24,046 nt of DNA, taken from positions 1-24,046 of the IMG/VR virus record IMGVR_UViG_3300032331_001206; one strand, given 5' to 3'. The translations under genes and the position numbers were made by a program. The notes beneath the pieces were generated by a model that saw only the letters and a program-made list of their open reading frames with translations, did not search any database and was not told where the DNA came from. This DNA is from a virus. Shown here piece after piece: positions 148 through 19,198 of this stretch; the stretch's first letter is position 1, and each line of letters starts with the position of its first letter.

Positions 148-636
148 ATGGCAATATTAGACGCAAACGAGATATTCTTCACAGCCTTTGAACCAAAACA
201 GGCTAACAGATTCATCCTTTATATGGATGGAGTACCTAGTTACCTAATCAAAGGAGTAAACGCTGTAACGTTAACTCAAGGTGAAGTAACATTAAACCAT
301 ATTAACGTATATAGAAAAGTTAAAGGTAAAACTACTTGGGGTAACATTCAAATGACATTATTCGACCCAATCACCCCATCAGGTGCTCAGTCAGTAATGG
401 AATGGGTTCGTTTACACCATGAATCAGTAACAGGTAGAGATGGATATTCTGATTTCTATAAAAAGGACTTAGTAATAGATGTTTTAGGACCAGTTGGTGA
501 TATTGTAGGAGAATGGATCTTAAAAGGCGCATTCATAACAGAAGCTAACTTTGGTGATTATAACTGGGATACTGAGAACACAGCAGTTAACCTTACAATG
601 ACTGTAGCTGTTGATTACTGCGTATTGAACTTCTAA
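148..636 (+). CDS. Tail tube protein (T4 gp19-like)
   Basis: At 162 aa it is nearly the same length as T4 gp19 (163 aa). Recognisable gp19-family features are the N-terminal FEPKQANRFILYMDGVPSYLIKG segment, the central FDPITPSGAQSVMEWVRLH segment and the C-terminal beta region with NFGDYNWDTENTAVNLTMTVAVDY. It polymerises into the inner tube through which DNA passes. The gene sits between the sheath and the tape-measure chaperone genes. The start has an A-rich leader (ataaataaaaagacATG) without a Shine-Dalgarno sequence. A strong hairpin terminator follows, which fits a high-copy product transcribed apart from the low-copy genes downstream. Confidence 0.92.
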   Translation: MAILDANEIFFTAFEPKQANRFILYMDGVPSYLIKGVNAVTLTQGEVTLNHINVYRKVKGKTTWGNIQMTLFDPITPSGAQSVMEWVRLHHESVTGRDGYSDFYKKDLVIDVLGPVGDIVGEWILKGAFITEANFGDYNWDTENTAVNLTMTVAVDYCVLNF

Positions 637-733: not shown

Positions 734-1465
734 ATGGAAAATAAATTCACAACACCAACAGAAACTGTTGACTTACCTTCACAAGGTTTAATCTACCCTG
801 AATCATCTCCTTTATCAAGCGGAAAAATTGAAATGAAATACATGACCGCTCGTGAAGAAGATATATTAACTAACCAAAACTACATCAATAAAGGCACAGT
901 ATTAGATGAGTTAATTAAATCACTCATTGTATCTGACGTAAATTATGAAGACCTAGTAGTAGGCGATAAAAACGCCTTATTAGTAGCAGCTCGTATTTTA
1001 GGGTATGGTAAAGATTATAAATTTGAGTATGATGGTGAAGAATATAATATTGACCTAACTACTATTGAAAATAAATCTATTAATCCTAAATCATTTAAAA
1101 AAGGAATAAATGAATTTAATTTTACTTTACCATCAACAGGAACAGAAATAACATTTAAGTTATTAACAGGAGTTGATGAAAAGAAAATTAATGCTGAATT
1201 AGAAGGATTAAAGAAAATAAATAAAAACTCATCATCAGAAATATCTACTCGATTAAAATATCTTATCACTTCAGTCGGAGGTAATCGAGATTCTAAAGAT
1301 ATTAGAAATTTCGTTGATCAACAACTATTAGCTCGTGACTCCAGAGCGTTAAGGGAGCATATAAAGGAGGTACAACCAGACGTAGATCTGACCTTTTTTC
1401 CCGAAGGAAGCAACGACAAAGTTTCAATTCCAGTTGGACTTAGCTTTTTTTGGCCTGACATCTAA
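734..1465 (+). CDS. T4 gp26-like baseplate/tape-measure chaperone, zero-frame product
   Basis: The 243-aa product opens with TPTETVDLPSQGLIYPESSP, then KIEMKYMTAREEDILTNQNY and a helical core. This is the pattern of the T4 gp26-type baseplate assembly family common in T4-like phages. By position, between tail tube and tape measure, it matches the gpG-type chaperones that coat the tape measure before tube assembly (family knowledge). Residues 238-239 (FF) are encoded by a run of seven T, after which this frame gives WPDI and stops. The overlapping next frame continues with 92 more residues, so a longer product of about 331 aa is likely. The start has an A-rich leader (actaataaaagatATG). Confidence 0.75.
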   Translation: MENKFTTPTETVDLPSQGLIYPESSPLSSGKIEMKYMTAREEDILTNQNYINKGTVLDELIKSLIVSDVNYEDLVVGDKNALLVAARILGYGKDYKFEYDGEEYNIDLTTIENKSINPKSFKKGINEFNFTLPSTGTEITFKLLTGVDEKKINAELEGLKKINKNSSSEISTRLKYLITSVGGNRDSKDIRNFVDQQLLARDSRALREHIKEVQPDVDLTFFPEGSNDKVSIPVGLSFFWPDI

Positions 1466-1730
1466 TGTTATTCCTATAGTTAGATCTAACTTATTTACTC
1501 AAATTCATGAAATTGTTTTTCATGGCCAAGGAGGTTATGACTGGACTACAGTCTATAACATGCCTACTTGGCTTCGTAAATTTACTTTTCATAAATTACA
1601 AGAACATTATGAAAAACAAAATGAATCACAGAATGAAGATTTAGGCTCTCAAACTAGTAATATTAAAGATGGAAAAGTTGAATTACCATCACATTTTAAA
1701 GGTAAGTTAGGTAAAGCACCTAAATATTAA
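1434..1730 (+). CDS. Frameshifted extension of the tape-measure chaperone (gpT/gp51-position)
   Basis: This frame overlaps the preceding gene by 32 nt and is +1 relative to it. It has no plausible start of its own: the only early initiator is TTG at 1434 with no leader signal, and the first internal ATG (1560) would remove the best-looking part, the NLFTQIHEIVFHGQGGYDW region. It is probably made as a C-terminal extension of the 734-1465 protein by slippage at the T7 run (1445-1451). The same two-product arrangement is known upstream of tape measure genes in lambda (gpG/gpGT, -1) and Mu (-2). Visible content is a helical segment with NMPTWLRKFTFHKLQEHYEKQ and a polar, Lys-rich tail. The coordinates give the open frame; the translated part probably begins near 1452. 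Confidence 0.6.
   Translation: MDLAFFGLTSNVIPIVRSNLFTQIHEIVFHGQGGYDWTTVYNMPTWLRKFTFHKLQEHYEKQNESQNEDLGSQTSNIKDGKVELPSHFKGKLGKAPKY
1445..1451 (+). other. Candidate programmed frameshift site (T7 run)
   Basis: Zero-frame codons are AGC TTT TTT TGG; the extension frame reads GCT TTT TTT GGC. Phe-tRNA on 1448-1450 can move +1 to 1449-1451 and still read TTT with a Trp codon waiting in the A site. A -2 slip would also land on TTT. A 14-nt perfect palindrome (1478-1491, AGTTAGATCTAACT) lies 26 nt downstream, but its fold as a stimulator is unproven. The alternative is a homopolymer sequencing error of one T. Confidence 0.55.
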
Positions 1731-1772: not shown

Positions 1773-4631
1773 ATGGCAGCCAACAATTTTAGTAAAGCAG
1801 AAATAGAAGAATTAAGATCGTTAATTAAACTTTTACAAAAAGATATTGATGGTGTAGAATTTGACAACCTTGTTAAATCAGGTAAAGCTGCTAAAGATTA
1901 TCTTCAAAAACTTAGAGAAGAATCTACTAAATTTGCGGGTGATATTGGTGAAGCTGTTGAAGGCTTCCAAAGGATGATTAATGAAATTAAAAACACTAAT
2001 ACTGGTGTTAATAAAGTAGCTAAATCATTCCAAAATTTAAGTTCTATAGCTGAAAAAATCCAATATCATCAAAGAGGTATCTCTACTTTAACTGAAAAGG
2101 ATATAAAATTACTTCAAGAAAAGCAAAAGAAAGAAAAAGTAAATTTAGAAAACATTAGTAAACTCTTACAGTTAGAGAAAAAAGGTCTAGAAGATAGATC
2201 TAAAGCTAATCAAGCCGCTATTAATAATTTAGCATTTATTACTAATAAAACGTTAGCTGAAAGAATCCAACTTAGAGGATTAGTTAACGAAAGGACTAAA
2301 TTAAATAAAGAACTACAAAAAAATATAACGGCTCAAGGTAATATAGTTGGTATTTTAAAAGAAGAAGATACTTATTATAATCAATTAGAAGCTGATTTAG
2401 CATCTATTAACACTCAATTAGATAAAGAACAGAGATTATTAGGTTTAGGTGGAGTAGCAATTAAAGGTATTGGTTCTGCTTTAGATAAATTAGGATTTGG
2501 TGGTTTATCTTCTAAACTTGGTTTAGAAGAAGCTAATGAAAAAATGAAAGAATTAGCTAAAGAAATCCGAGAAGCTAATGGAGATGCTAATTCATTTGCT
2601 AATAAATTTAAAGTATTAAAAGCTGGGATTAGTTCAATGGGTTCATCACTTATTGAAAACTTAAAAGATCCTTTAGTTATAAGCACATTCTTTATTACCC
2701 AAATTATAGATGCCCTTAAATCTGCTGATGACCAAACAGGACAATTAGCTAAATCATTTAATAAATCATATAGTGAAGCAAGTAAAGTTAGAAATGAATT
2801 AAATACAATAGCTAACTTATCAGGAGATATCAATGTATCAACCAAAGGTTTACAAGAAAGTATGGTTGCTGTAGGTAATTCTTTAGGTACTAATGCTATG
2901 TTAAATGAAAAAGATTTAGTTACTTTTACTAAATTAAGAGAAATGGCTGGTTACACTAATGAAGAATTAATAGGTATCCAACAATTATCATTAGTTAACG
3001 GTAAAACATTAGAAGATAACACTAAAGAAATATTAGGTGGAGCGCAGGCATACGCGAATCAAAATAAATTAGTTATTAATGAAAAAGAAGTACTTAAAGA
3101 AATTAGTAAAGCATCAGCCTCATTAAAATTATCATTAGGTGGAAGCGCTGAAGCATTGGCTATAGCTGTAGTTCAAGCTAAACAATTTGGTTTAAACTTA
3201 GAACAAGCAGAAAAAATATCTCATTCATTACTTCAATTTGAAGATAGTATTTCTTCTGAATTAGAAGCAGAATTATTAACTGGTAAGAATTTTAATTTTG
3301 AAAGAGCAAGATCATTAGCACTTGAAGGTAAAACTGCTGAAGCAGCTGCTGAAGTAGCTAAACAAGTAGGATCAGCTAAAGACTTTGGTAAATTAAATGT
3401 TATTCAACAAGAAGCTATAGCTAAGTCTATGGGTATGCAAAGAAATGAATTAGCTCAATCTTTAATGGATAAAGAAGCATTAGCCAAATTATCAGCTAAA
3501 GAAGGAGAATCAGCCCAACAAGCATTTAATAGATTAGTTGAAGAAGTAGGGATGGAAGAAGCTAAAAAACGTCTAGGTAATGATCAAATAGCTAAACAAT
3601 ATGAGCAACAATCCATACAAGAAAAATTTAATGCTACTGTTGAAAAACTAAAAGAAGTATTCATGTCTTTAGTTACTCCATTGATGCCTGTTTTAGATGT
3701 ATTTTCTGAAATATTCAAAATAGTAGGCCCAATAGTTGGAGGATTAGGACAAATGTTAAAATTCTTAGTCCCTATAGCTAAATGGGTTGGTATAATAGCT
3801 ATAGGTTATAAAACAATGCAGTTTGCTGGGGATGGTTTATATAGAAAAACTGTGTTAATAAATGCTGCTAAAAAAATTGGTTTAATAACTGACAGACAAT
3901 CTGTTATGACTCAAAAAGCAGCTAATATTTTAGCTAAAGGAACACTATTAACTGAAAACCAAAAAGAAATGGTTAAGAGGAATAGTCTTTTACTTACTAT
4001 AAAAAATAATATACAGAAAAAGCTTGAATTGATGTTTGGTAAACAATCTTTAGCAACATCAATAAAAGAAGCGGCTATAAAAGCTAAAAATTATTTAGTA
4101 GATAAAGCAACTAATGTTTTATTATACACTAGAAATATCCTTTCCGCTATAGGTAATAGTATAGCAACAGTTTATAATGCAATAGCTAAATCTAGTTTAG
4201 TAAAATTAATAGGACAAGCTGTCACAACTGTTATTAGAGCATTTACAAGTTTAGGACCTTGGGGATTAGTAGCTGGTTTAGCAGCTGGTGCAAGTGTAGC
4301 GGCATTAGGATACAAGTTTTTAAAAGGTAATGACATTATGTCAGCTGGTAAAGGTAAAAATGGATACGGTAAACGTACTTTATTAGCACCTGAAGGAGCA
4401 ATTGCTTTAAATGATAAAGATACTGTTATAGCAGGAACTGATTTAGGAGGTAAAGGTAAACAACAAACACAACAATCTTCATCTCCTTCAATTAATATGC
4501 AACCTATGATAGATAAATTAGCGGCTGTAGAAAGTGTACTTAATCAAATATTAAATAAGAGTAGTGATGTATATATGGATTCTACAAAAGTAGGAACAGC
4601 ATTAAACATAAGTTCTGTTCAAGTCCAATAA
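1773..4631 (+). CDS. Tail tape measure protein
   Basis: The 952-aa product has long Lys/Glu-rich heptad-like helices over about residues 1-230 and alanine-rich helices through about 620. Hydrophobic stretches follow near residues 630-690 (MSLVTPLMPVLDV, VGPIVGGLGQMLKFLV) and near 825-860 (LGPWGLVAGLAAGASVAALGY). The C-terminus has GYGKRTLLAPEGAIALNDKDTVIAG, a pattern I associate with tape measure proteins of Bacteroidota phages. The protein sets tail length and is delivered ahead of the DNA. At the usual 1.5 angstrom per residue the tail tube would be roughly 140 nm, longer than T4 (gp29, 590 aa); this is an inference. Its position right after the frameshifting chaperone pair is the classic arrangement. 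Confidence 0.9.
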   Translation: MAANNFSKAEIEELRSLIKLLQKDIDGVEFDNLVKSGKAAKDYLQKLREESTKFAGDIGEAVEGFQRMINEIKNTNTGVNKVAKSFQNLSSIAEKIQYHQRGISTLTEKDIKLLQEKQKKEKVNLENISKLLQLEKKGLEDRSKANQAAINNLAFITNKTLAERIQLRGLVNERTKLNKELQKNITAQGNIVGILKEEDTYYNQLEADLASINTQLDKEQRLLGLGGVAIKGIGSALDKLGFGGLSSKLGLEEANEKMKELAKEIREANGDANSFANKFKVLKAGISSMGSSLIENLKDPLVISTFFITQIIDALKSADDQTGQLAKSFNKSYSEASKVRNELNTIANLSGDINVSTKGLQESMVAVGNSLGTNAMLNEKDLVTFTKLREMAGYTNEELIGIQQLSLVNGKTLEDNTKEILGGAQAYANQNKLVINEKEVLKEISKASASLKLSLGGSAEALAIAVVQAKQFGLNLEQAEKISHSLLQFEDSISSELEAELLTGKNFNFERARSLALEGKTAEAAAEVAKQVGSAKDFGKLNVIQQEAIAKSMGMQRNELAQSLMDKEALAKLSAKEGESAQQAFNRLVEEVGMEEAKKRLGNDQIAKQYEQQSIQEKFNATVEKLKEVFMSLVTPLMPVLDVFSEIFKIVGPIVGGLGQMLKFLVPIAKWVGIIAIGYKTMQFAGDGLYRKTVLINAAKKIGLITDRQSVMTQKAANILAKGTLLTENQKEMVKRNSLLLTIKNNIQKKLELMFGKQSLATSIKEAAIKAKNYLVDKATNVLLYTRNILSAIGNSIATVYNAIAKSSLVKLIGQAVTTVIRAFTSLGPWGLVAGLAAGASVAALGYKFLKGNDIMSAGKGKNGYGKRTLLAPEGAIALNDKDTVIAGTDLGGKGKQQTQQSSSPSINMQPMIDKLAAVESVLNQILNKSSDVYMDSTKVGTALNISSVQVQ

Positions 4632-4846: not shown

Positions 4847-7248
4847 TGGGATTAATCGATTTAAGAACTGATCTTAAATCTCTCAGATATGGTAATGATC
4901 AAAGAGGAGGTGGTTCAAGTAACCAACCCTACATTACCACTTCCATACCTGAGGGTTATGCTCCAACGTCAGCAGATTTCTTGCTACGTAATGGATACTT
5001 AAACCCTGTTAACTCATTTCAGGATGTAAAAAGATTATCTAAATTCTTTACTGATACAAAAACTCCTAACGGATTATTATTTACTATCAAACAAGAATTA
5101 TTAGAAAGACAAAATCCTAAATTAGTTAATATTAATAGAATTTATAATCCATTAGGAACACTATCTCAAGCTGGTTTAAATTCTTTAGGTTTTCATGTTA
5201 ATAAACAAGGATTAAATAATTCTGAACCATCATATTTTAATGGTGGAAGATATGGTTATTATTATGCAACAAGAGGATTTGGTGTAGACCCTACATTCCA
5301 ATTCCTACCAGGAGAAGGATATGAAAATAGATTAACTATAGCGTATACTGCTAAAGTAGAGAAAAAACCATTAGGTCCTTTAACTATTAATCCTTTTGGT
5401 GTAACAAATTTAGCTGGTAGTGGTATATTATTGTCTTATCCTGGTGGTCCTAATGCTCCATTAGGGTTAGGTATAACTAATATTAGAATTCAAAATCCAA
5501 CTCGTACTGTAGATTTACCTAAAGACAGAACAGTATTTGGTCTTAGAGAAGGTGGTACAAATATAGATAATAAAAATTATTTAGTATATAGTGGAGCACT
5601 AACTATTAATTGGGTTTATGGGAATAATAACTATGAATTTGGAATTAATAGAGGAGCATCAGACGCGTACTATTCATTAGATAATGTTCCAACTAGTTAT
5701 TTAATTAAGTTAACAGGTAATCAAACAGGTAATGTAAAAGATAGTATATTAAATAGAGATACATCTGTTAATAAACCACCTATCCAAAGTAATAATACTT
5801 TTAATTTAAATGGAGAATTATTAAAAACAGATCTTAATTATCTAAGACCAACTGGTGTTAATTCATCCAATGTTACCTGGGTATATCCTTCAGGCTCAAT
5901 TGTAAAAAATAGAGATACATCTGTTAATAAACCTGAAGATAGAGAAGCAAATAAGTTTAATTTAAATAGTGGTAAATTAAAAACTGATTCTAATTATTTA
6001 AGACCAACTAATGTAAGTTCAAGTAACGTTAATTGGGTGTACAACCCATCTGGAGAAACAAATGCTTCAAATGAGTTTATAATTACATATGGTGAGGATA
6101 ATGAAAAAATATATACAAACAATGTTAGTAATATATTAAATAGGAAAGGAACAATTGGTGAAGTAAAAGATATTCCTAAAACTTTTCTCCCATCAAAAAG
6201 ACTAATAGGATGGCCTAATACTTTTAAAATTGGTAAGAAAGGTGGGGCTAAAAATCTTATAAACCTTAACAAATTAACAGAGGCATCAGATAAATACACT
6301 AGGGAAACAGGTAATAAAATTAGTAATAGATTAGATTCTAATCTTCAACAAAACATACCTTCAATCCAATCATTCTCAGATGCGGCTGTTGTTACTAATA
6401 AGGGAGTAACTACTTTAAATTCCTTAAACCCATATTATAACATAAAAACTATACCAGACCCTGAAAACCCAACAAAGGGTGGTACAATAGTTCCATTACC
6501 ATATCCTAATATATCTGAGTTTAATAGAGAAACAACATATAAAACTTCACTAACTCAATTCCGTACTGATAGACCACAGTTAACTAATGAATCTATAAAT
6601 TCAGATGAGTTACAACTTCAACGTGTTTTAACAAAAGATAAAGCTGAGGACTACAAAAATACAGATTTAATTAAGTTTTTCTTTGAAATTAATAATAATG
6701 ATGCTACAACAGATACTGAGAACTTTTGGTTATTCTTTAGAGCGTATCTTAATGAATTTGGAGATGATTATAAAGCAGAATGGGATTCTTACAAATATGT
6801 AGGAAGAGCTGAAAACTTCTACAAATACACTGGCTTCTCCAGAAATATTTCATTATCATTCACAGTATACGCTCACTCAAGAGCAGAAATGAAACCAATT
6901 TACCAAAAATTAAATTATCTTGCGGGTGTAACTGCTCCAAATTACTCAGAAGCAGGATATATGAGGGGTAATTTTGTTAATATAACTGTAGGAAATTATT
7001 TAAATTCGGTTCCATGTATTATTGAAAGTGTAAGTTTAAAACCATCATTTGAGGCTGGGTGGGATATAAATAGAGATGATAATGGGATAATTATAACACC
7101 AACAACATTAAATAGTGTAGATGATGTAGGACAATTACCTAGAATGATTGATGTAAGTTTAAGTATTATACCAATACACTCATTCACACCTAGATTCCAA
7201 GCCTCATTCATTAACACACCAACAGATGATCCTCAAGTTACTATTTAA
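4846..7248 (+). CDS. Baseplate protein with C-terminal tail-tube-initiator-like domain
   Basis: The 800-aa structural protein has a C-terminal domain of about residues 607-790. Visible there are the FFFEINNND strand, NFWLFFRAYLNEFGDDY, the SRAEMKPIYQKLNYLAG segment, a GYMRGNFVNITVGNYL strand and LPRMIDVSLSIIPIHSFTPRF at the end. This resembles the T4 gp48/gp54 family of baseplate proteins from which the tail tube starts to polymerise. The first 600 residues are Asn/Gly/Tyr-rich, low in cysteine and unassigned. They include a 52-codon tandem duplication (residues 303-404). It is much larger than T4 gp48 or gp54, so the N-terminal part is probably an extra baseplate module. Its start overlaps the 58-aa gene by one base, suggesting coupled translation. 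Confidence 0.6.
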   Translation: MGLIDLRTDLKSLRYGNDQRGGGSSNQPYITTSIPEGYAPTSADFLLRNGYLNPVNSFQDVKRLSKFFTDTKTPNGLLFTIKQELLERQNPKLVNINRIYNPLGTLSQAGLNSLGFHVNKQGLNNSEPSYFNGGRYGYYYATRGFGVDPTFQFLPGEGYENRLTIAYTAKVEKKPLGPLTINPFGVTNLAGSGILLSYPGGPNAPLGLGITNIRIQNPTRTVDLPKDRTVFGLREGGTNIDNKNYLVYSGALTINWVYGNNNYEFGINRGASDAYYSLDNVPTSYLIKLTGNQTGNVKDSILNRDTSVNKPPIQSNNTFNLNGELLKTDLNYLRPTGVNSSNVTWVYPSGSIVKNRDTSVNKPEDREANKFNLNSGKLKTDSNYLRPTNVSSSNVNWVYNPSGETNASNEFIITYGEDNEKIYTNNVSNILNRKGTIGEVKDIPKTFLPSKRLIGWPNTFKIGKKGGAKNLINLNKLTEASDKYTRETGNKISNRLDSNLQQNIPSIQSFSDAAVVTNKGVTTLNSLNPYYNIKTIPDPENPTKGGTIVPLPYPNISEFNRETTYKTSLTQFRTDRPQLTNESINSDELQLQRVLTKDKAEDYKNTDLIKFFFEINNNDATTDTENFWLFFRAYLNEFGDDYKAEWDSYKYVGRAENFYKYTGFSRNISLSFTVYAHSRAEMKPIYQKLNYLAGVTAPNYSEAGYMRGNFVNITVGNYLNSVPCIIESVSLKPSFEAGWDINRDDNGIIITPTTLNSVDDVGQLPRMIDVSLSIIPIHSFTPRFQASFINTPTDDPQVTI
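5752..6057 (+). repeat. Tandem in-frame duplication inside the 800-aa baseplate gene
   Basis: Two adjacent units, 5752-5907 (52 codons) and 5908-6057 (50 aligned codons), both start NRDTSVNKP and contain FNLN, LKTD, NYLRPT and SSNVxWVY. I count 32 identical residues of 50. The first 26 nt of the units are identical, while the rest has diverged mainly at third positions and in a linker. Confidence 0.85.
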
Positions 7249-17920: not shown

Positions 17921-19198
17921 ATGTATTGGTTAGTAGAAACTAAAGATCAATTAAGAGAATTTTTTAATCAAGACTATAAGGAAGTCTTTGTTGAGATTAT
18001 TCCTTATCATAATCAAATTCACCCTGCTTTAAATGATGTATGTTTAGTCTATATTAGACCAACTTATGATTCTAAAGGATATATGTTTTGTATTGACCAT
18101 AGTGAAACAATGTCACTTGGGAAAACATACATTGAAAAATTATTAAAACATATAGATACGGTTTATGTTAGGGATAAAAAATCATTCCTATATTATTTCC
18201 AACTAAACAAAGTAACAGATATTTCTTCTATTAAATATGTAGAAACTCCATCTGAACCTGTATTTGATATCTTTTATAGAAAACATCCTAATAAAACAGA
18301 TATTAACAAAATAATTCCAATAGTTAAGCATTATGAGGTTTGTGAGAATATTTATACTCAACTCCAACAAATTATATTGGAACCAAAACCAGAATATGTT
18401 AAATTCTATAATAAAGGTGCTTTAGCATTTTTTGGAATTGAAAAGAACGGAATTAAAATTAATGAAGACAAGTTTTATAAATACTATGAACCAAATAATA
18501 GCTTATACTCGATACGCGATAGTAGGGTGTTTACTCAATATAATCTCAATACTACAACAAGACGCCCATCTAATGCCTTTAATAGCATTAACTTCGCTGC
18601 TCTAAAGAAAGACAACCACTCAAGAGCAAGCTTTATACCACAAAACAATGAATTTCTTGAAATTGATATTTCTGCATACAATCCGACTTTGGCTGGACAA
18701 CTGGTTTCTCATGAATTTAGTAACCCTGATATTCACGCTGATTTTGCTAGCATGTATGGCGTAGACTACGCTAAAGCAAAAGAATTAACATTTAAACAGT
18801 TATACGGTGGAGTATTTGAAGAATACAAATCACTTCCATTCTTCCAAAAAATTCAAACATATGTTCAAGAACAATGGAAATTGTTTAATGAACAAGGTTT
18901 TATTAACGCTCCTATATCAGGTTACATGTTTAAAAAGGATTCATTAGAAAATATGAATCCACAAAAATTATTCAATTATATCTTACAAAACCTAGAAACA
19001 TCTACAAACATAGGTATACTACTTAAGATTCATAAGATATTAGCAGGTAAAAATACTAAAATAGTTCTATACACATATGACTCATTTCTACTTGATTGGG
19101 ATGAAGATGAAGAGCAAGAATTAGAACAGATCAAAAATATATTTAAAGAAATGAAGTTATCAATAAAAATTAATGGAGGGAAGAATTATGACTTTTAA
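17921..19198 (+). CDS. Family A DNA polymerase, short and divergent
   Basis: The 425-aa product has PolA-type motifs in order. TTTRRPSN at 211-218 corresponds to the TxxGRLSS region. Motif A is LEIDISAYNP with catalytic Asp249. Motif B is AKAKELTFKQLYGG with Lys287 and Tyr295. Motif C is LYTYDSFLLDW with catalytic Asp387. Differences from E. coli Pol I: the motif A Glu (Glu710) is Asn254, the motif B Arg754 position is Tyr283, and the motif C His-Asp-Glu is Tyr-Asp-Ser. The N-terminal 150 residues resemble the size and strand pattern of a 3'-5' exonuclease domain but I see no DxE or other clear metal-binding set. Canonical T4-like phages use a family B polymerase (gp43), so this is probably the replicative enzyme by replacement. 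It has its own promoter; the leader is aaaaaataaaggttATG. Confidence 0.8.
   Translation: MYWLVETKDQLREFFNQDYKEVFVEIIPYHNQIHPALNDVCLVYIRPTYDSKGYMFCIDHSETMSLGKTYIEKLLKHIDTVYVRDKKSFLYYFQLNKVTDISSIKYVETPSEPVFDIFYRKHPNKTDINKIIPIVKHYEVCENIYTQLQQIILEPKPEYVKFYNKGALAFFGIEKNGIKINEDKFYKYYEPNNSLYSIRDSRVFTQYNLNTTTRRPSNAFNSINFAALKKDNHSRASFIPQNNEFLEIDISAYNPTLAGQLVSHEFSNPDIHADFASMYGVDYAKAKELTFKQLYGGVFEEYKSLPFFQKIQTYVQEQWKLFNEQGFINAPISGYMFKKDSLENMNPQKLFNYILQNLETSTNIGILLKIHKILAGKNTKIVLYTYDSFLLDWDEDEEQELEQIKNIFKEMKLSIKINGGKNYDF

Follow-up and report, generated by a model that had tools for sequence, protein, structure and literature searches.

Probable programmed +1 frameshifting in a T4-related myovirus gene for tail assembly chaperones

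Results

The chaperone locus and its neighbours

The DNA analysed in this study (the window) was the 24,046 nucleotides of the viral record IMGVR_UViG_3300032331_001206. Two overlapping open reading frames, ORF A and ORF B, were found between the genes for a tail tube protein and a tape measure protein, which is the gene order of a TAC-N/TAC-NC pair of tail assembly chaperones (TAC). ORF A encodes 243 amino acids, and its 3' codons are AGC TTT TTT TGG CCT GAC ATC TAA. ORFs A and B meet at a run of exactly seven T. The frame of ORF B is +1 relative to that of ORF A, is open from inside ORF A to position 1730, and has a TTG at position 1434, within ORF A, as its sole listed start. Reading ORF A through position 1450 and then ORF B from position 1452 gives a fusion of 331 amino acids. 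A preliminary description, made from the letters of the window, had placed the meeting of the two frames at these seven T and had predicted forms of 243 and 331 amino acids; the coordinates (1445-1451) were right by sequence reading, and translation of A and of the fusion gave the same lengths. The features of the locus are as follows.

148-636, plus strand: upstream neighbour, gene for a tail tube protein (match to the tail tube family phrog_4542, E=2.5e-21)
734-1465, plus strand: ORF A, putative short chaperone (TAC-N), ending in FFWPDI and a stop (PF12322, phrog_150, AlphaFold2 model)
1445-1447, plus strand: first Phe codon TTT, predicted E-site codon when slippage occurs (TTC, CTT or TGG in relatives)
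1448-1451, plus strand: predicted slip tetranucleotide TTT_T, the P-site tRNA moving from 1448-1450 to 1449-1451 (codon variants; CTT_T alternatives)
1451-1453, plus strand: zero-frame A-site codon TGG (Trp), common to most relatives
1452-1454, plus strand: GGC, next codon read after the predicted slip (sequence reading)
1452-1459, plus strand: conserved GGCCTGAC, coding in both frames (WPD, GLT), with TGA in the -1 frame
1463-1465, plus strand: zero-frame stop TAA of the short product
1452-1730, plus strand: ORF B, 92 aa in the +1 frame, the helical C-terminal domain of the predicted 331-aa TAC-NC
1773-4631, plus strand: tape measure gene, downstream neighbour (similarity to a phage immuto protein)

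The tail tube gene also gave a weak match to PF06841 (T4 gp19), under the gathering score. The product of the downstream gene resembled the protein annotated as tail tape measure in Flavobacterium phage immuto (29% identity, E=1e-48). Elsewhere in the window, a 425-aa ORF (17921-19198) matched phrog_17, a DNA polymerase family, with the match restricted to profile positions 958-1207, which suggests a split or partial polymerase.

Identity of the two reading frames

ORF A matched PF12322 (T4_baseplate) at 28.2 bits, above the cut-off of 24.5, and 31 of 45 homologues of A matched this family at E<=0.01 (best 3e-18). Both T4 gp26 and T4 gp51 also match PF12322, and phrog_150 was common to ORF A and these two proteins. 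The PF12322 match and the tube and tape measure neighbours bear out the earlier suggestion of a T4-like tail chaperone. ORFs A and B were folded separately with AlphaFold2. The model of A had a pLDDT of 90.9, and its matches in a library of viral structures were T4-like baseplate-hub and hub-assembly-chaperone proteins. After re-alignment of 619 PDB chains, the best neighbours of the A model were YqbN (Z 5.6, rmsd 4.4, 88 aligned) and then the HK97 TAC (Z 4.8, rmsd 3.9, 92 aligned), with low scores for both. The YqbN protein of B. subtilis is a prophage protein which we take to be of the tail-chaperone type. Low on their own, these structural scores of a predicted model agree with the position of the gene between tube and tape measure. 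A search of the PDB by sequence gave nothing beyond chance ribosomal matches.

ORF B was modelled as a short helical domain with moderate confidence. Among 40 B proteins, 17 matched phrog_32580 ('tail assembly chaperone') and 4 matched phrog_634 (the gp51 C-terminal family), all of these matches being weak. Single sequences gave no hhalign match to T4 gp51 or gp26, and family profiles were needed. Because the fused A+B profile (positions 59-305) aligned with gp51 (43-249; probability 77, E 2e-5) and reached the end of gp51, and gp26 covered essentially A only, ORF A appears to correspond to gp26, as the TAC-N counterpart, and A+B to gp51, as the TAC-NC counterpart.

Conservation of the two-frame layout

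The two-frame layout was kept in essentially all relatives examined, with 266 dereplicated junctions from IMG/VR contigs (down to approximately 28% identity) and, in addition, Flavobacteriales MAGs and isolated phages. Nearly all of the nearest 80 IMG/VR loci shared the junction TTT TTT TGG CCT GAC and the +1 position of B, a recurrence well beyond chance. In a codon census of 140 protein-selected, dereplicated loci, the commonest junction codons were TTT TTT TGG (124 loci), followed by TTC TTT TGG (4 loci), by TTT CTT TAC, TTT TTT TTC and TTT CTT TGG (3 each), and by CTT TTT TGG, TGG TTT TGG and TTC TTT CGG (1 each). The 124 loci agree with the earlier proposal of a Phe-tRNA on TTT with a Trp codon in the A site. 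The alignment of homologues that had been recommended as a check gave a divided answer: the layout persisted in essentially all of the 266 junctions, but the run of seven T was not present in all. The T run of the window is real but is not the signal as such, as TTC_TTT_T, TTT_CTT_T and TGG_TTT_T also occur.

The MAG homologues (37-48% identity, several of the MAGs being Flavobacteriales) still had TTTTTTTGGCCT. In the isolated phages, B was in the +1 frame after TCC TTT TTT TGG AAT (RM378), TTT CTT TGG (immuto), TTT TTT TGG (Mel-JY01), TTT TTT CAC (SP-15), TTT TTT AGT (LIS04) and TTC TTT CGT (GXN1), and the same was true of the 484-kb LR756508, with TTT CTA TTC. From these comparisons, the T4-related phages with +1 chaperone loci appear to form a large group, for the most part from Bacteroidota. 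In the deposited annotation of RM378, immuto, SP-15 and LIS04, there is a small internal ORF or nothing at the position of the frameshifted domain. The same junction was found near both ends of NHDW01000006.1, a 306-kb contig binned as Methylococcaceae. This contig resembles a jumbo phage of about 280 kb with circularly overlapping ends, placed in a MAG by mistake.

Coding potential of ORF B

The +1 frame after the site was open for a median of 90 codons in the 252 junctions (of 266) where this frame ends within the contig, and for fewer than 54 codons only in loci L005 and L065. The -1 frame shuts almost at once, and 263 of the 266 junctions share the early codon at which it stops. Over 50 codons, pN/pS was 0.38 in the B frame versus 1.07 and 1.27 in the other two frames, a comparison that shows purifying selection on B, in the +1 frame only. 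This selection and the layout kept in essentially all relatives uphold the initial reading of the junction as a programmed frameshift. The suspicion that B is conserved from the overlap onwards was also correct, as conservation begins at GLT, at the slip site.

The B frame of L005 (5719-5808) is broken after 30 codons and is open in near-identical relatives; this is likely to be a sequencing error or a broken copy. Locus L065 is a natural split, in which the gene for a GIY-YIG homing endonuclease (PF01541; 5300-5938, plus strand) lies exactly between A and B. In this locus B follows at 5941-6159 and starts with an ATG that it has acquired, and A still ends in the FFWPD tail, although the codons of the tail have drifted to TTC TTT TGG CCC GAT. 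A group I intron was considered for L065, and the Rfam search gave none; no intron or cis element was found by Rfam, every match being under the gathering score.

Direction of the shift and alternative explanations

The frame relation between A and B alone permits a shift of +1 or -2, as had been recognised in the preliminary description, which left this choice open and set -1 aside. In the +1 group, no X_XXY_YYZ heptamer with a downstream ORF in the -1 frame was found. The choice between +1 and -2 was resolved to +1 for the group by natural variants. The sequence TTC_TTT_T was present in 43 of the 266 junctions, with B still in the +1 frame. A -2 slip is unworkable on TTC_TTT or TGG_TTT, because the tRNA-Phe would face UCU or GGU, and these and related variants therefore indicate +1 slippage at NUU_U for the group. 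In all of the 140 census loci the second codon was TTT or CTT followed by T, the P-site NUU then U of the prfB type, the exception being L564 (TTC TTT CGG, i.e. UUU_C). When the second codon of the site encoded Phe it was never TTC (0 of 134), against a TTC share of 4-14% at the other conserved Phe positions, with 4% at the first Phe of the site and 8-14% elsewhere. A DNA scan of IMG/VR gave, among the matches listed, a TAC context for 51 of 120 TTC TTT TGG CCT GAC matches versus 1 of 120 for TTY TTC TGG CCT GAC (p=3e-17, for loci that are related and with the TTY TTC pattern, being two sequences, having the larger background). Even with these reservations the contrast is very large. The lone TTY TTC exception among the matches listed, L316 (TTT TTC TGG), keeps UUU_U one codon earlier. 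By comparison of homologues, then, the slip tetranucleotide is essential. The +1 direction in the window itself follows by homology, and its own seven T alone would in principle allow -2 or transcriptional slippage.

A Mu-like -2 ribosomal slip on the T run would lead to the same frame with one extra Phe, and predicts FFFG instead of FFG in the junction peptide (VSIPVGLSFFFGLTSNVIPIVR in the window, VSFLFGLTPEYR in immuto). The seven T of the window and of most close relatives do let the tRNA re-pair two bases back, TTT is above expectation as the first Phe codon, and LIS04 (TTT TTT AGT) fits a -2 slip at the second codon and equally a +1 slip at the first. The excess of TTT at the first codon, however, equally fits an E-site effect (PMC3498833), and re-pairing two bases back fails in the TTC_TTT_T and TGG_TTT_T homologues as well as in GXN1 and L564 (TTC_TTT_C), which makes a -2 slip very unlikely. 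In transcriptional slippage, the RNA polymerase would drop one U or add two at the homopolymer of seven T found in the window and close relatives, so that the mRNA pool would encode the fusion. Yet the layout is unchanged in the many homologues with just four T (TTC TTT TGG) and in immuto, L140, L152, L105, L115 and L144, which have CTTT. The run also lacks the lengthening that is usual for slippage runs, and remains at seven or fewer save for a few TTT TTT TTC (T8). Since a mechanism acting on seven T cannot work on four, transcriptional slippage is rejected in the TTC_TTT_T lineages, and it is extremely improbable as the general explanation.

Just as improbable is ORF B being a separate gene with its own start and coupled translation. 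Annotators have called small internal ORFs in RM378, SP-15 and immuto, and B of L065 does have an ATG; against this, in 79 of the 266 junctions the stretch of the +1 frame from the preceding stop to the site has no ATG, GTG or TTG, the conservation of B starts only at the slip site, and the TTG of the window, which falls in the codons of a conserved V/I-G of A, is missing in many relatives. A homopolymer at the junction of a contig from a metagenome might raise the suspicion of a sequencing error, but numerous independent contigs share the layout, as do isolated phages with finished genomes, and a broken gene is at odds with the purifying selection on B; the probability of either is negligible.

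Codon context and search for stimulators

RNAalifold predicted no pairs in a consensus structure of 31 sequences, and the z-scores of single-sequence folding were mixed (-2.1 for the window, near zero for L040 and immuto). No conserved purine-rich block resembling a Shine-Dalgarno (SD) element was present upstream of the site in the 266 junctions, which fits the rare use of SD by Bacteroidia (PMC8710568). The A-site codon in the 140 census loci was TGG, TAC, TTC or CGG. As UUU_U is common in other genes (about 2,400 occurrences in 493,000 codons of the fetched loci), the tetranucleotide alone cannot suffice. Candidate stimulators are the UGG A-site codon, the weak E-site UUU and the downstream CCUGAC; a weak duplex in the E site is reported to promote +1 shifting (PMC3498833). 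Avoidance of TTT_TGG was not seen in other genes, where TTC preceded TGG outside the site in 26 of 72 cases, near the 33% found before T-starting codons. The next base had a strong effect on Phe codon choice in these AT-rich phages: across 975 ORFs of the fetched loci, TTC made up 53% of Phe codons when C followed, 33% when T followed and 15-19% when the following base was G or A.

Conservation per position of GGCCTGAC was 0.97-1.00 across the 266 junctions. The CCTGAC within it places a TGA in the -1 frame just past the slip (window 1452-1459). This -1 stop is kept by the variants CCTAAG, CCTAAC, ACTAAC, CCTAAA and CCTAGA and by AATAAG of RM378, and it is missing just past the slip in L554, L556, L558 and L083. 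Such a stop may serve to terminate ribosomes that slip -1 on the T run.

Discussion

On the strength of these sequence comparisons, a programmed +1 ribosomal frameshift is very probably used in the TAC gene of this T4-related myovirus. The majority of ribosomes would stop at the TAA of ORF A and yield the 243-aa TAC-N. In a minority, with peptidyl-tRNA-Phe on UUU (1448-1450) and a slowly filled UGG in the A site, the tRNA would slip +1 onto UUU (1449-1451), GGC would be decoded next and ORF B read, giving the 331-aa TAC-NC. The CUU_U lineages would use the same slip, as in prfB. The predicted junction peptide is VSIPVGLSFFGLTSNVIPIVR in the window and FFPEDGPDGGVDIPIGVSFLGLTPEYR in immuto. By analogy with lambda gpG/gpGT, the tape measure protein may be coated by TAC-N, and tail tube subunits may be recruited through the domain that TAC-NC has in addition. 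That both proteins are made, with what efficiency, with stimulation by UGG and E-site UUU and with a role in assembly, is what we infer for this locus.

The literature calls frameshifting in TAC genes widely conserved among phages with long tails, 'except T4' (PMC5009743). Shifts of -1, -2 and +1 occur across tailed phages, with HSTV-2 a likely +1 case (PMC5009743, PMC8211752). The remark in the preliminary description that +1 would be unusual in tail genes holds in that such shifts are rare, but this haloarchaeal virus is a precedent. HSTV-2, a tailed archaeal virus, is reported to have a +1 tail shift, and differs in gene, host and A-site codon (PMC8211752). The lambda gpG/gpGT proteins are likewise a TAC-N/TAC-NC frameshift pair, but the lambda shift is -1 in the lambda G family, whereas the shift proposed here is +1, in the T4 gp26/gp51 family, and uses no X_XXY_YYZ heptamer. 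In T4 itself, which shares PF12322 and phrog_150 with this locus, the form matching A (gp26) and the form matching A plus a C-terminal extension (gp51) come from two separate genes on opposite strands instead of one frameshifted locus. According to papers that cite it, Vladimirov et al. 2022 (PMID 34826709) reported gp26 and gp51 as the chaperones of T4.

Resemblances to +1 sites outside tail genes are also evident. The prfB (RF2) gene of Flavobacterium, including Flavobacterium johnsoniae, has a CUU_UGA +1 shift (PMC8710568). In both cases a P-site CUU or UUU would slip +1 onto UUU, and the immuto lineage has exactly CUU_U; prfB, however, has an SD-like element, a UGA A site and autoregulation, whereas the chaperone site is without SD, has the sense codon UGG and would give two products. 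Influenza PA-X (UCC_UUU_CGU; PMC3498833) is a structure-free +1 slip on UUU, and GXN1 and L564 likewise have UUU_CGN; PA-X differs from the window locus in gene, host and A-site codon.

In RAS14, XacN1, Atu_ph07, PA5oct, BF, Munch and Melnitz, the homologue of B follows U_UUU_UUU or U_UUU_UUC and lies in the -1 frame. These jumbo and T4-like phages have homologous A and B and the same Phe-Phe codons, and differ in direction. The -1 layout after U_UUU_UUN, with the frameshift unannotated, was observed in proteobacterial jumbo and T4-like phages (L167, L168 and L170-L175). A 2025 paper with a related report for Adele describes -1 shifting in Vandenendeviridae (PMC12846349). Citing Vladimirov 2022, it also mentions that T4-like phages have poly-T signals for -1 shifts in their TAC-N genes (PMC12846349). 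For T4-type phages the solution is two genes. Because the +1, -1 and two-gene solutions need four changes on the tree of A (minimum two), on which several branches are long and weakly placed, the direction of the frameshift appears to have changed at least once in the family. Our literature search found no report of a +1 shift in the T4 gp26/gp51 family, although part of this may have been noted in Vladimirov 2022.

A broader reading, to which we give an even chance, is that of a distinct structure-free +1 signal that works on Bacteroidota ribosomes without SD help, and that consists of UUU_U or CUU_U at the P site, preferably with UUU in the E site, of UGG in the A site and of CCUGAC after it. 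In this broader reading, the two Phe codons would serve a -1 shift in homologues, and the direction would have flipped within one orthologous pair, with T4 using two genes instead.

The annotation of RM378, immuto, SP-15 and LIS04 can be corrected, as the fusion is unannotated in all four. The hundreds of aligned natural variants amount to a mutational scan of a +1 site, and indicate which base of the P-site codon is fixed and that the E-site codon is free to vary. What would be new is that the T4 gp26/gp51 family itself frameshifts, and does so forward, in a very large and mostly uncultured clade, and the existence of +1, -1 and two-gene homologues makes the switching of direction directly testable.
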